A program made the position numbers and the translations under genes. Under the pieces are notes generated by a model. That model worked only from the letters and a program-made list of their open reading frames with translations. It was not told the origin of the DNA and ran no database searches. Positions 20,448 through 26,113 of a DNA stretch of 34,580 nt are shown here, piece after piece. The DNA comes from Cyanobacteria bacterium M5B4 (GTDB lineage: Bacteria > Cyanobacteriota > Cyanobacteriia > Pseudanabaenales > Pseudanabaenaceae): contig PHFO01000009.1 of assembly GCA_002861535.1 (NCBI GenBank), forward strand, positions 1 to 34,580, read 5' to 3'. How positions within the stretch are numbered: position 1 is the stretch's first letter; every line of letters starts with the position of its first letter.

Positions 20448-22073
20448 CTAGAAGGAGAAGGTGGTACGCAAAGCACCAACAACGATCGTGTCGTTACTGC
20501 TATTGTTGTTAGGATTGAACACAAAGAACACACCAGGCTGGATATTGATGTTGCGAGATACGCGATAGCGATAGAACACTTCCAGGTTATAGGAAGTAGC
20601 GTTAGAGTCAGGGTTAGTAGCCAGGCTGGTGCTCGTTACGCGGGGAGGCTGACCAAAGGCGATCGCACCCAAGTTACCAGAACCAAACAAATCGGGGAAG
20701 GTCAAGTTAACTGCCCAGCTTAGGAGGTCAGCAGTAGCACCACGGTTAGGACCAGCTTCAGAGCGGGCATTGACAAAGCTGACGTTACCACCTAGAGCAA
20801 AGCTCTTAGCAATTCCCCAGTCAAAGGCAAAGCCATACCGATCGGAAGAAGTATCTTGGTTGAAGGGGTTGGCCGCAAAACTGGAACTAGTGGAAGAAGT
20901 CAGGTTGACACCGCGAGCATCAAAGGCACGAGCATAAACTGCACTCAGCTTCAAATCCTTAGTCGGTTTGAACAACAGCTGCACTGCAGCAGTGTAGTCG
21001 CCGTTAGTTAAACCAGCCTGTCCTACAGGATTTGATGCCGTAGAACCAGGAGCTAGGTAGGCAAGATTGATGTTAAACTGCTCGCTTGCCTTGAATTGCA
21101 AACCTACCCCTGCACCTTCCGCACCACGGAAAACTAGAGGGTCGTAGCGATGGAACCGAGATAGGAAACCAGTATCTGAACTAGCAGCACGGTTGATAGG
21201 ATCAAACACATCGTCAAAGTCCAGACCGTTCACCCCAACAAAAGCAGTGATATTGTTACCGATGGGGAAGCGGTAGAACAGGTCATCAATAACAAAGTTG
21301 CCAGAAGTATCACCATCAAAACCTAAGCGGGCCATGTTGGTACCCACGGTGGTGCTGTTAAACCCAGTCACATTATTAAATTGCAGACGGGTTCTCAACA
21401 AATCCTTGCCAGTAAAGCTGGTGTTAAAGTTAAGCCGTACCCGTGCCCCAATCACAAAGTTGGAACTCTTACCCTTGCCTACAGTTCCGCCTGCGGCGCT
21501 AGTAGCAAAGGCAGGGACAAATTGAACGGTAGCGGCTAACTTAGTGGTGGTAGAAAACTGTTGCTTCTCCAGAGTTGCTACTTTGTTTTCCAGGGCATCT
21601 ACCCTACCCTTAATGGCAGCTAATTCTGCCGCAAATTCTTCTTGCAGGCGTTGCAGGGTAGCCAAATCTTCCTTGCTTACCTTGTCTGCCAAACCAGCGG
21701 AAATTACTTCGTTGATCTTGTCTAAACAGGCGTTCAAACCAGCGGCAAATTCAAAACGGGTGGTAGCTCTCTGTCCGCGGAAAGTCCGATCGGGGTAACC
21801 TTCAATACAACCGTAGCGCTCTACCAGGGATTGCAACGCTCCAAAAGCCCAGTCTGTAGGCTGTACGTCGCTTAATTCAGATACGGAAGTTACTTGGGAT
21901 ACATTGCCAGCCTTGGGGCGGCTCAGGGGATCGCTGCCGATGCTGCGAATCAAAATCGAGTCATTGTTTTGGGCAACATTGTTAGTCTTAGGCTCTGCCC
22001 CTGCTTGGGACGCTGCCATCGCAGTGTAAGCCATTACCAAAGATGTTGCGGTTAAAAGTGTTAGTCTTGCCAT
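20448..22073 (-). CDS. Iron uptake porin (SLH domain plus OprB-type beta-barrel)
   Basis: Cyanobacterial outer-membrane porin of 541 residues with the ATG at 22073. A signal peptide (MARLTLLTATSLVMAYTAMA) leads to an S-layer-homology domain (VTSVSELSDVQPTDWAFGAL, then YPDRTFRGQRATTRFEFAAG), a short coiled coil (LQRLQEEFAAELAAIKGRVD, NKVATLEKQ) and a long beta-barrel of alternating hydrophobic strands ending in ALRTTFSF. The terminal Phe is typical of outer-membrane proteins. SLH domains tether such porins to the peptidoglycan. Homologs are linked to iron and inorganic ion uptake; the substrate here is inferred. A strong GGAGG 7 bases upstream sets this start rather than an upstream ATG at 22094. 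Confidence 0.93.
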   Translation of the reverse strand: MARLTLLTATSLVMAYTAMAASQAGAEPKTNNVAQNNDSILIRSIGSDPLSRPKAGNVSQVTSVSELSDVQPTDWAFGALQSLVERYGCIEGYPDRTFRGQRATTRFEFAAGLNACLDKINEVISAGLADKVSKEDLATLQRLQEEFAAELAAIKGRVDALENKVATLEKQQFSTTTKLAATVQFVPAFATSAAGGTVGKGKSSNFVIGARVRLNFNTSFTGKDLLRTRLQFNNVTGFNSTTVGTNMARLGFDGDTSGNFVIDDLFYRFPIGNNITAFVGVNGLDFDDVFDPINRAASSDTGFLSRFHRYDPLVFRGAEGAGVGLQFKASEQFNINLAYLAPGSTASNPVGQAGLTNGDYTAAVQLLFKPTKDLKLSAVYARAFDARGVNLTSSTSSSFAANPFNQDTSSDRYGFAFDWGIAKSFALGGNVSFVNARSEAGPNRGATADLLSWAVNLTFPDLFGSGNLGAIAFGQPPRVTSTSLATNPDSNATSYNLEVFYRYRVSRNINIQPGVFFVFNPNNNSSNDTIVVGALRTTFSF

Positions 22074-22080
22074 CTTTACT

Positions 22081-22085
22081 CCTCC
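22081..22085 (-). promoter_or_regulatory. Ribosome binding site GGAGG of the porin
   Basis: GGAGG lies 7 bases before ATG 22073 on the minus strand. It falls inside the codons that an upstream start at 22094 would use, so it decides the start site. Confidence 0.75.
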
Positions 22086-22298
22086 ATTCCTCACACCGTA
22101 TTAGTCTATCTAAAAACCAGATACTTTGCAAGGTTAACCATTTACCAGTCTTAGTGTAGCAGAACGATCGGCATATGCTCAAATATTCTGATACGTCTAT
22201 CCATTAACTGGGTTGTTGACTATATTATTAGGTATCCACAGTGCCGATCGCGGGAGTATGGTTTGTGGTATCTGTAATTATTTAGCTTGGATGGTTGC

Positions 22299-24446
22299 AT
22301 GGAGTTTTCAATTACTCATTTATTAGAGGCTTGTTCGGAGGATAAGTTAGTCGCCCCAAAATTCCTAGAAAAAAAGTTGGGCATTGAGTCGGAGGATGGG
22401 GTTAGTGATTTACAAATTGTCCTAGATGCCCTGGAGAAGTCCGGTATTTTGGAGAAGGACAAGGGCAAGTACCGCCGTGTATCGGAAGATGGTTTGATTG
22501 AGGGCAGGTTGCGTTGTTCCAGTAAGGGCTATTGTTTTGCCATCCAGGAGGGGGAAGGGGCAGAGGTAATTTACATCCGCGAAAATAAGCTCAGCTCCGC
22601 CTGGAATGGGGATAAGGTGCTGGTTAAGGTGACTAAGGACGGAATGCGCCGCCGGAATCCTGAGGGAGAGGTGAGGTTGGTGGTGGAGCGGGCTAATAAC
22701 CGCATTTTGGCGCGGGTAAAGGCAACGCCCCAGGGTTATCGGGCAGTTCCCCTCGATAATCGCTTGAATGTGGAATTGGAATTGCTGCCCACGGAGGGGC
22801 TGGCGATCGCCCCCGATCGGTTGGTGCATTTAGAAATTGTCCGCTATGCCCTAGGTAATCTTGCGCCCTTAGCGAGAGTGACGCGGATTTTGGGGATGGA
22901 TGACTCTACAAGCGAAGAGCAGGAACTGGTGCGGTGTAAGCATAATTTACCCGATCGGTTTAGCCCGGAGGTTTTGACTCTAGCAAGGGATTTGACCCCT
23001 ACCCCCCTCGGCATAGATCGCGTCGATTGCCGCAGTCAGCGGGTAGTACAAATTGGCAAAGCCCTGATTTCTTTGGAGCAGGAACCCCTGGGGTGGGTGA
23101 TTGGGGTGCATATTCCCGATGTAGCTTCCTATATTGCCCCCGACTCGCCTCTGGATCAGTTGGCAAGGGCGCGGGGGCGCTCCTACTGGCTGGGAGAACA
23201 AGTGGTGCCGATGTTGCCTCCCCTGGCTTGCTGGCAACAACCCGATCGGCTTTGTATTTCGGTATTTATGCACCTGACGGAGGCGGGAGAGTTACATTCC
23301 TTTACCATTCAACCCACGATCGTGGAAGTGTCCCTGCCCAGAGAAGATGACCCTACCATCAAGCGCATCTATGATTCCGCCCGATCGGTGGAGGCTTACT
23401 TGGCACCGGTGATAGTGGATTTAGACATTACTTGGGGGGATGAGGGGGATGACGGGGTTCTGGGTGTAATCATTACCAAGTCTCCCCTGCGGGCGATGGT
23501 ATCCCGACTGCTGATCATGGCAAATCGGGCTGTTGCTCTGCACTTTAAGGCGCTGAGCCTGCCTGGTATTTTTTACTACCAACCAGAACCAGACCCCGAT
23601 CGGATGACAGACTGGCAAAATTTATTGGCAGAGTTGAAAGTCTCCCCTCCGGAAATCCGCCGTTACCTCGGCAACTTTGACCAGGTTGATACCCCCGCCC
23701 GTCAAGACATTTTGAAGCAGTTATTCTTGAGCCTCCTGCGCCAAGGAGAACACAGCCTCCAGCCCCTCTCCCACTTTGCCCTGATGCTTGCTGGCAGAGA
23801 TACCCCCTACTGCCACAGCGTTCTGCCCAACCATCGTTACAGCGACCTACTCAACCAGCGTCTCCTCCTCCTGTTATTCCAGGAAGGCAGGGACCGCCGT
23901 AGCAGCCGATCGAAGGAAGGAGTCGATCTGTGTAGTTCCAAATGCCATGGACAGATCAGTTGGAGCGTTTTACCGCCAGAAACAGAACGCCAATTCCGCA
24001 ATCTCGTGGAGGCATTATTACCCAATCTCAATCACCAAGAGCATTTAGCCTACCGCAGTGCCCTAGACCTGGAAGGGCTGAGGAAAATTGCCCTCGTCCA
24101 GCCCCATCTGGGCAAAAATCTCTACGGCATGATTACCGCTGTGCAGAAATACCGATTTTTTGTCACCCTGGAAGACTCCCTGGCAGAGGGTCTAGTCCAT
24201 GTCAGCTCCCTTAAGGATGACTGGTATGAATTTCATCAAAACCCCAATAATAAGCGGGGGCGGGCATTGATCGGCAAACGATCGGGTAAGCAATATGCCA
24301 TCGGCGATCGGATTGAGGTGCAGGTGCGGGGAGTAGACTACTACCGACAACAAATCGACCTGGGGATCGTGCGTAACGGCATAGTCACCGAGCCTAGTGA
24401 GAGCGAAGAAGAAGATTACGACCCCGAAGAAATATTAGATGAGTAG
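22299..24446 (+). CDS. RNB-family (RNase II/R-like) protein with degenerate active site
   Basis: A 715-residue protein with an N-terminal winged-helix/cold-shock region (about 1-200), an RNB domain (about 225-600) and a C-terminal S1 domain (about 610-700, NLYGMITAVQKYRFFVTLED, then GLVHVSSL), ending in an acidic tail. The RNB catalytic block, normally ID-P-D-A-x-D-x-DD, reads GIDRVDCRSQRVVQIGKALI (from about residue 238): the first two Asp remain, but the other two or three metal ligands are Ser, Arg and Val. The usual FTSPIRRYxDL block reads HSVLPNHRYSDL. The fold is kept (LGWVIGVHIPDVASYI, LIMANRAVA, DTPYCHS) while catalysis is probably lost. ATG 22299 is chosen because the TTG upstream adds only four codons. 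RNA binding is inferred. Confidence 0.85.
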   Translation: MEFSITHLLEACSEDKLVAPKFLEKKLGIESEDGVSDLQIVLDALEKSGILEKDKGKYRRVSEDGLIEGRLRCSSKGYCFAIQEGEGAEVIYIRENKLSSAWNGDKVLVKVTKDGMRRRNPEGEVRLVVERANNRILARVKATPQGYRAVPLDNRLNVELELLPTEGLAIAPDRLVHLEIVRYALGNLAPLARVTRILGMDDSTSEEQELVRCKHNLPDRFSPEVLTLARDLTPTPLGIDRVDCRSQRVVQIGKALISLEQEPLGWVIGVHIPDVASYIAPDSPLDQLARARGRSYWLGEQVVPMLPPLACWQQPDRLCISVFMHLTEAGELHSFTIQPTIVEVSLPREDDPTIKRIYDSARSVEAYLAPVIVDLDITWGDEGDDGVLGVIITKSPLRAMVSRLLIMANRAVALHFKALSLPGIFYYQPEPDPDRMTDWQNLLAELKVSPPEIRRYLGNFDQVDTPARQDILKQLFLSLLRQGEHSLQPLSHFALMLAGRDTPYCHSVLPNHRYSDLLNQRLLLLLFQEGRDRRSSRSKEGVDLCSSKCHGQISWSVLPPETERQFRNLVEALLPNLNHQEHLAYRSALDLEGLRKIALVQPHLGKNLYGMITAVQKYRFFVTLEDSLAEGLVHVSSLKDDWYEFHQNPNNKRGRALIGKRSGKQYAIGDRIEVQVRGVDYYRQQIDLGIVRNGIVTEPSESEEEDYDPEEILDE

Positions 24447-24503: not shown

Positions 24504-25013
24504 ATGAATAACCCGGACCTGTTAGTGGAAATTAGTGCGGATGCTGAGCCAATTCCTGTATCTACGTCAGTGATTGCTGAGGAAATCCAAAAACTAACCC
24601 TAGTTGCCCAGCAAGCGGGGCAGGAGCTAGATGAAATTACCTTTGCCACCAAATTTAACAGGGAGGGAAGGCTGATTTTATCGCCCCAAGCAATTAGCCT
24701 CAAATTTCGCCGCCCTGGTATGGTTGCCCTTCCTGCTACTACTAATGCTGTTGCCCCTGCTAGCCCCCCGATCGCTACAGATATTTACGCTAACCTCCGA
24801 TCGGCGCTAGGACAGTCTGACTGGAAACAAGCAAATCAAGAAACCTGGAATTTATTATGTCTAGGTCTGAAAAAGGCTCCGGGTAGTAAAATTTCGCGGG
24901 ATGAAATCACCAAACTGCCCTGCGAAATGTTGCAAAAAATCGATCGTCTCTGGCAAGACCACAGTCAAGGTAAGTTCGGCTTTAGTATCCAGCAACAACT
25001 GTACAGACGTTAG
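24504..25013 (+). CDS. GUN4-domain protein, short
   Basis: From ATG 24504 the protein is 169 residues (a TTG at 24468 would add 12). Residues 1-70 (LLVEISADAEPIPVSTSVIA, IQKLTLVAQQAGQELDEITF) are unassigned. Residues about 90-169 resemble the GUN4 core: YANLRSALGQSDWKQANQET, LPCEMLQKIDRLW and SQGKFGFSIQQQLY. Canonical GUN4 continues after FGFS with another 40-50 residues including a conserved W and the end of the tetrapyrrole pocket; here the stop follows QQQLYRR. GUN4 binds protoporphyrin or Mg-protoporphyrin and stimulates Mg-chelatase; short paralogs are of unknown role. The Hpt gene starts 11 bp after its stop, so the two are probably cotranscribed. Confidence 0.72.
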   Translation: MNNPDLLVEISADAEPIPVSTSVIAEEIQKLTLVAQQAGQELDEITFATKFNREGRLILSPQAISLKFRRPGMVALPATTNAVAPASPPIATDIYANLRSALGQSDWKQANQETWNLLCLGLKKAPGSKISRDEITKLPCEMLQKIDRLWQDHSQGKFGFSIQQQLYRR

Positions 25014-25024
25014 GGGAAAATCTT

Positions 25025-26113
25025 ATGAGTAATGACCAGATTTTAGTTTACTTCATCGATGAAGCGAAGGAACACCTGCAAACGATCGAACGCGGCTTAA
25101 TGGACATTGAAGGGATGCTGGCGGATGAAGAATCTATCAACGAGGTCTTTCGGGCAGCCCACTCCATCAAGGGGGGAGCCGCTATGCTTACCCTCAAAGG
25201 CATTCAACACATCTCCCACAAACTAGAAGATTACTTCAAAGTCCTCAAAGAACACCGCGACTTACCAATTGATAAGGAGTTACAAAGTTTGTTTCTCCAG
25301 GGGTTCGACAAATTACAAGACCTCTTAATCGAATTACAAAGCCCAACGGGATTGACTGAAGCCAAAGAACAGGAAGTTTTGCGGGATGCTGAACCCATCT
25401 TCGACCTCCTCAAGCAACACCTGGATGCCGTTTTAAGCGGCAGTGCCGCCCCTGTTGCTCAGGAAACTACTCAAACCAAGGCAGTAGAAACCAAGAATAA
25501 GCTGGCAGTGTTCCAGCGGGAAGTAACAGAAAAATTACGGGCAATGTTGCAGTGCTTCAAACAACCCGATCGTCCCAATAGTCGCAATGAACTGCAAAAA
25601 CTCTGTGACCAGCTCCTGCACTACGGCGAAGAATTTGACCTGCCTCAATGGAACGAGTTGATCCGAGCAGCGCGTTTGGCAGTAACAAATCTTAACAACC
25701 AGTATCGAGATTTAGCCCCAATTGTGATTCGGGAGATCAAGCAGGCTCAGGATATGGTAGTAGCAAATCGCACCTTAGAGATCAAAGTTTCGCCGCAAAT
25801 GCGGAGTTTAGCTCCCAACGACTTCTTTAATCCGATGGCACGCTCCCAAGACGAGGACATCAGCACCTTCTTTAACATTGTGGAAGACCCGCCAGAAGTG
25901 GAAAAATGGAAGGAATTTGCCAAAACGATCGGGTGGTTGAGAGGTCCAGAATGGATTACAGATGAGAAGATCGACTATTCTCTCAATGCGCCTGCGGGAC
26001 ACTTGCCTGCCCCCCTGTGGCTAGAGCAATGGCATAAGCCCAAGGATAAGAAGGCAGAACTTCTGCGTAAGGAGTACGATGCTTTTATAAATCGTATTCA
26101 GGAATGTAACTAG
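25025..26113 (+). CDS. Hpt-domain phosphotransfer protein (CheA N-terminus-like)
   Basis: A 362-residue protein with an N-terminal Hpt domain: FIDEAKEHLQTIERGLMDIE, then VFRAAHSIKGGAAMLTLKGI, where His46 in AAHSIKGG is the phosphoacceptor of CheA/PilL-type Hpt domains. HISHKLEDYFKVLKE completes the bundle. The rest (residues about 150-362) has no histidine kinase or receiver domain; it is helical (LQKLCDQLLHYGEEFDLPQW) with an unrecognised C-terminus containing WLRGPEWITDEKIDYSLNAP. Some cyanobacteria split CheA-like PilL into an Hpt part and a kinase part, so this could be the Hpt half of such a system, or a phosphorelay intermediate. The gene starts 11 bp after the GUN4-domain gene and ends 4 bp into the opposed DUF1830 gene. 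Confidence 0.8.
   Translation: MSNDQILVYFIDEAKEHLQTIERGLMDIEGMLADEESINEVFRAAHSIKGGAAMLTLKGIQHISHKLEDYFKVLKEHRDLPIDKELQSLFLQGFDKLQDLLIELQSPTGLTEAKEQEVLRDAEPIFDLLKQHLDAVLSGSAAPVAQETTQTKAVETKNKLAVFQREVTEKLRAMLQCFKQPDRPNSRNELQKLCDQLLHYGEEFDLPQWNELIRAARLAVTNLNNQYRDLAPIVIREIKQAQDMVVANRTLEIKVSPQMRSLAPNDFFNPMARSQDEDISTFFNIVEDPPEVEKWKEFAKTIGWLRGPEWITDEKIDYSLNAPAGHLPAPLWLEQWHKPKDKKAELLRKEYDAFINRIQECN

Follow-up and report, generated by a model that had tools for sequence, protein, structure and literature searches.

The metal-binding loop is deleted in the zam-type RNB-family protein of Cyanobacteria bacterium M5B4

We analysed a stretch of 34,580 nucleotides from the genome of Cyanobacteria bacterium M5B4 (the window) and find that its RNB-family gene is an ortholog of Zam, an already described cyanobacterial RNB-family protein, in which the metal-binding loop has been deleted. 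The product is very probably an RNase R-derived pseudo-exoribonuclease that acts as a redox-gated regulator. Zam has been described as an RNB clade of cyanobacteria in which the active site is degenerate and two redox cysteines of the first cold-shock domain (CSD1), C73 and C79, are invariant (Thomas et al. 2022, PMC9145284); the M5B4 protein has Cys at exactly residues 73 and 79. Because Zam is already known as a dismantled nuclease, this sighting of one is ordinary in kind. What we add is modest: a graded loss of the active site across Zam, with near-intact members, and a loop excision specific to one family.

The open reading frame runs on the forward strand from ATG 22299 to the stop codon at 24444-24446. 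Starting from a TTG at 22287 would lengthen the protein by four residues, but nearly all homologs begin with MEFSI, and 22299 is therefore the preferred start. The features of the gene are as follows.

22299..24446, + strand, zam-type RNB-family gene, 715 aa, uninterrupted frame
22299..22499, + strand, N-terminal helical region, residues 1-67, with helices at 5-11, 20-27 and 32-47 (alignment and model)
22503..22676, + strand, CSD1 (OB_RNB), residues 69-126, Pfam PF08206, E 1.1e-17
22509..22535, + strand, LRCSSKGYC, the L12 loop, which carries the redox cysteines C73 and C79, with a role known from orthologs (PMC9145284)
23010..23048, + strand, GIDRVDCRSQRVV, a conserved R-x-D-L-R stretch that precedes the catalytic block (alignment)
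23049..23072, + strand, QIGKALIS, all that is left of the metal-binding block (TIDxxxxxDxDDA), with a shortened loop
23067..23867, + strand, RNB domain in two matched stretches, Pfam PF00773, E 3.8e-41
23814..23840, + strand, HSVLPNHRY, counterpart of HFTSPIRRY, with His512 as the R500 equivalent
23886..23900, + strand, GRDRR, start of the RNB-to-S1 block, conserved in Zam and weakly like E. coli RNase R
24111..24368, + strand, S1 domain with LVHVSSLKDDWYEF and VDYYRQQID, Pfam PF00575, E 8.6e-9

OB_RNB, CSD2, RNB and S1 all exceed their Pfam cut-offs in the product. Against the NCBIfam RNase R model TIGR02063 it scores 280.8 bits, below the equivalog cut-off of 597.85, and it is therefore related to RNase R but not a typical member. 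An AlphaFold2 model (mean pLDDT 79.8, pTM 0.78) has the RNB fold, and its top Foldseek matches are the RNase R structures 8cdu, 5xgu and 7did, with a query TM-score of at most 0.67; yeast Ssd1, a pseudonuclease, is also among the matches. Pfam, the model and the RNase R structures thus agree with what had been proposed from the letters alone, namely that the RNB fold and the C-terminal S1 domain are retained in an uninterrupted frame. The M5B4 genome has two RNB genes, zam and a separate Rnb (C18), and the latter carries TIDDISTTEIDD and TSPIRRY, its catalytic motifs being intact.

Much of what can be said about function comes from orthologs. Mutants of zam are affected in phycocyanin synthesis and in the ratio of the photosystems, and each Cys-to-Ser mutant phenocopies the deletion, redox-dependent function in vivo having been shown for PCC 7002 only (PMC9145284). 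With purified PCC 7002 Zam, in a preparation prone to aggregation, no nuclease activity was seen, and the protein bound none of the RNA substrates tested (PMC9145284). A review describes Anabaena Alr1240 as degrading unstructured RNA and stimulating RNase E (PMC10989914), and the Anabaena RNase E partner was identified as Zam by Thomas et al. (PMC9145284).

Extrapolating from these experiments, we propose that M5B4 Zam would not degrade RNA and would act through CSD1 and S1, which may bind RNA, RNase E or both. The C73-C79 disulfide would be the redox switch by which RNA turnover is adjusted and, through it, the levels of phycobilisomes and photosystems. Judging from the motifs of Rnb, the 3'-5' hydrolytic activity of the family would be left in this cell to that intact enzyme. 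In a narrower version of the same explanation, Zam has lost RNA binding and serves RNase E purely as a protein scaffold. We regard it as unlikely, though not negligible: the Anabaena protein does bind and enhance RNase E (PMC9145284, PMC10989914) and RNA binding was not seen with purified PCC 7002 Zam (PMC9145284), but CSD1 is one of the best-conserved parts of the protein, and this includes the L12 loop, which has basic and aromatic residues (PMC9145284). The broader reading, a redox-gated regulator that may use RNA as well as RNase E, is the one that we prefer.

The RNase II active site consists of four Asp residues and R500, and the D209N substitution alone kills activity (PMC3293843). According to the sequence-only reading, the M5B4 catalytic centre is dismantled, with metal-binding Asp residues absent and FTSPIRRY altered. 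Both of these points stand, but the first block had been read in the wrong register. It had been assigned to GIDRVDCRSQRVV, which phmmer and MAFFT, in agreement with a comparison to RNase R of E. coli, place just before the active site; RVDCRSQRVVQIGKALIS aligns with the RNase R stretch immediately upstream of the metal-binding block. Since GIDRVDCRSQRVV lies upstream of the catalytic block, the Asp residues within GIDRVD are not metal ligands. Over the stretch where E. coli RNase R has 17 residues, the M5B4 protein has 10, VVQIGKALIS, none of them Asp, and no equivalent of D201, D207, D209 or D210 was found on alignment with RNase R and Zam sequences. The idea that the ligands might be displaced yet present, which had been named as a possible refutation, was checked by the same means and does not hold for M5B4 Zam. 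The change of FTSPIRRY to HSVLPNHRY was confirmed at 23814-23840, where His512 is the counterpart of E. coli RNase II R500 while Arg513 and Tyr514 are retained, and the equivalents of F358, E390 and E542 are I, S and A. As the four Asp residues and R500 are needed in RNase II and are lost here, the conclusion of a dismantled centre survives the error of register. Sequencing error was ruled out as a source of these changes, since two same-genus genomes, whose Zams are 71% identical to that of M5B4, carry VVQLGEALIS and VAQLGEALIS, and LPQYRYPD.

It is very improbable that M5B4 Zam is still a nuclease, with a metal site that has moved or with other residues doing the work. In favour of this, Anabaena Alr1240, which has been assigned to Zam, is reported to be active (PMC10989914) although the Nostocaceae-type Zams that we read have no Asp pair. 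Against this stand the loss of all four Asp equivalents and of the catalytic Arg, the I, S and A at the F358, E390 and E542 positions, the lack of activity in PCC 7002 Zam (PMC9145284) and the inactivity of RNase II with D209N as its only change (PMC3293843).

The deletion is a property of the family Pseudanabaenaceae, to which M5B4 belongs, and not of one genome. A match to the M5B4 protein was present in 38 of the 38 Pseudanabaenaceae genomes searched, every full-length Pseudanabaenaceae Zam that we read has the short loop, and in the trees the family's loop-deleted sequences group together as one clade (SH-aLRT 100). In our comparison set of 142 Zam sequences the loop-deleted class has 21 members, all from Pseudanabaenaceae except the long-branch L132 and the fragment L133. 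The interval from position 199 to position 212 holds 7-8 residues in 20 of the 21, as compared with at least 12 in the other classes, the remaining one being a fragment with no sequence in the loop region. L132 (G085) and L133 (G241) are both Zam-like, divergent and from outside Pseudanabaenaceae; L132 has a short loop of its own and, where the two redox cysteines align, has neither of them, and L133 is a fragment as read.

Selection on the gene was estimated against the same two same-genus genomes, giving dN/dS values of 0.083 and 0.114, which are approximate since dS (1.9-2.5) is near saturation; closer Pseudanabaenaceae pairs gave 0.04-0.08. Resolved by domain against the same-genus orthologs, dN was lowest in CSD1 (0.04-0.06), the most conserved domain, followed by S1 (0.10-0.11) and the block after RNB (0.14-0.16), and was highest in RNB itself (0.30-0.33), the least constrained. 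With CSD1 and S1 held tightly and RNB loosely, constraint is distributed as in a protein whose work is done by its OB-fold domains. The view that zam is a pseudogene decaying towards loss could draw on this fast-evolving RNB region (dN 0.30-0.33) and on the M5B4 protein being the shortest Zam of the first set gathered, but it is hardly credible given an intact frame in the full-length sequences read from the family, a dN/dS of about 0.1 or below, the strong conservation of CSD1, S1 and the post-RNB block, and a loop whose length hardly varies within the deleted class (7-8 residues). The family-wide deletion, the purifying selection, the near-invariant cysteines and the ortholog genetics instead support the earlier suggestion of a retained regulatory or RNA-binding pseudo-nuclease over random decay.

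Across the 142 Zams the cysteines are far more constant than the active site: C73 is found in 140 and C79 in 138. D201, D209 and D210 are kept together in 16 sequences, all of which also retain R500 and E542; a further 13 have the D209-D210 pair without D201, bringing those with the Asp pair to 29. The site is substituted in 92. Asp at the D207 position was found in none of the 142, and the 29 sequences with the pair have A, S, T, V or G there. R500 is retained in 26 of these 29, as against 33 of the 113 without the pair, and its loss tracks that of the pair (Fisher p 3e-9), an association that is descriptive, since the rows are related and p is not a true probability; loss of E542 does so weakly (Fisher p 0.04, likewise not a true probability, as the rows are related). 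Taken together, the aligned residues indicate that active-site loss across Zam is graded and that some Zams are short of an RNase II-type site by one ligand only. The Zams L056, L062, L071, L086, L109, L112, L135, L136 and L137 keep D201, D209, D210, R500 and E542 and do not keep D207; from their residues these proteins are possibly partly active. That some Zams of Leptolyngbya, Elainella and Nodosilinea type, which are short only of D207, retain activity while Pseudanabaenaceae excised the loop is a tentative proposal, and we hold it to be possible if somewhat doubtful.

The history of the Asp pair was followed on trees built without the active-site columns. Three to four changes of its state are required on the Zam trees, a count that by itself would point to repeated loss; a single loss was not rejected by the AU test (p 0.47 and 0.58). 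As a single loss comes at little cost and several branches are long, we do not claim several independent losses. In the fungal Ssd1/Dis3L2 lineage repeated loss of the active site has been inferred (PMC8097288). The RNB proteins of non-photosynthetic Cyanobacteriota are mostly Rnb-like, with TIDD motifs, and for this reason they were left out as an outgroup. A mobile-element origin was also considered and rejected, the plasmid and phage records listed carrying only RNase R-like genes of about 25% identity.

Downstream of zam, a GUN4 domain is apparently split across two adjacent forward-strand genes. The first (24513-25013) matches GUN4 positions 7-83. In the second (25025-26113) the N-terminus is an Hpt domain, and the C-terminal part matches positions 88-133 weakly. 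The two genes also come after zam in two genomes of the same genus, and about 20 Pseudanabaenaceae loci have similar sequences downstream of it. On the other side, 20448-22094 on the reverse strand encodes an OprB-type porin with an SLH domain, divergent from zam; many Pseudanabaenaceae loci have a similar porin upstream of zam.

Zam would represent an RNA-decay enzyme turned into a redox-linked regulator of photosynthesis. Within it, the Pseudanabaenaceae deletion is a natural and unambiguous catalytic null, a cleaner case of a known kind, and the near-intact Zams stand at the opposite end of the active-site series. A loop-deleted Zam could thus help to settle the report of a dead Zam against the activity reported for Anabaena Alr1240.

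In comparison with known systems, the M5B4 protein is closest in kind to Zam of Synechocystis PCC 6803 (sll1910) and Synechococcus PCC 7002 (A1543), with which it shares the domain order, the degenerate RNB site, the identically numbered C73 and C79 and the status of a second RNB gene in a genome that also has an intact Rnb. It differs from these two in having His at the R500 equivalent, and from most Zams read in that its metal-binding loop is deleted where theirs is only substituted. Cyanobacterial Rnb, represented by the C18 copy of M5B4 itself and by Synechocystis sll1290, belongs to the same RNB family and, unlike M5B4 Zam, retains TIDxxxxxExDD and SPIRRY; sll1290 is active and essential (PMC3293843). 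RNase R of E. coli and B. subtilis has the same fold and domain order and is the top PDB match by sequence and by structure, but M5B4 Zam has neither the catalytic Asp nor the catalytic Arg residues and has the Zam CSD1 cysteines. The likeness to fungal pseudonucleases of RNase II type, yeast Ssd1 among them, lies in a lost active site alongside conserved cold-shock domains (PMC8934651, PMC8097288); the fungal proteins, however, have a separate, eukaryotic descent from Dis3L2, and in Ssd1 remnants of regulatory sequences block the path of the RNA, whereas M5B4 Zam has instead lost a loop.
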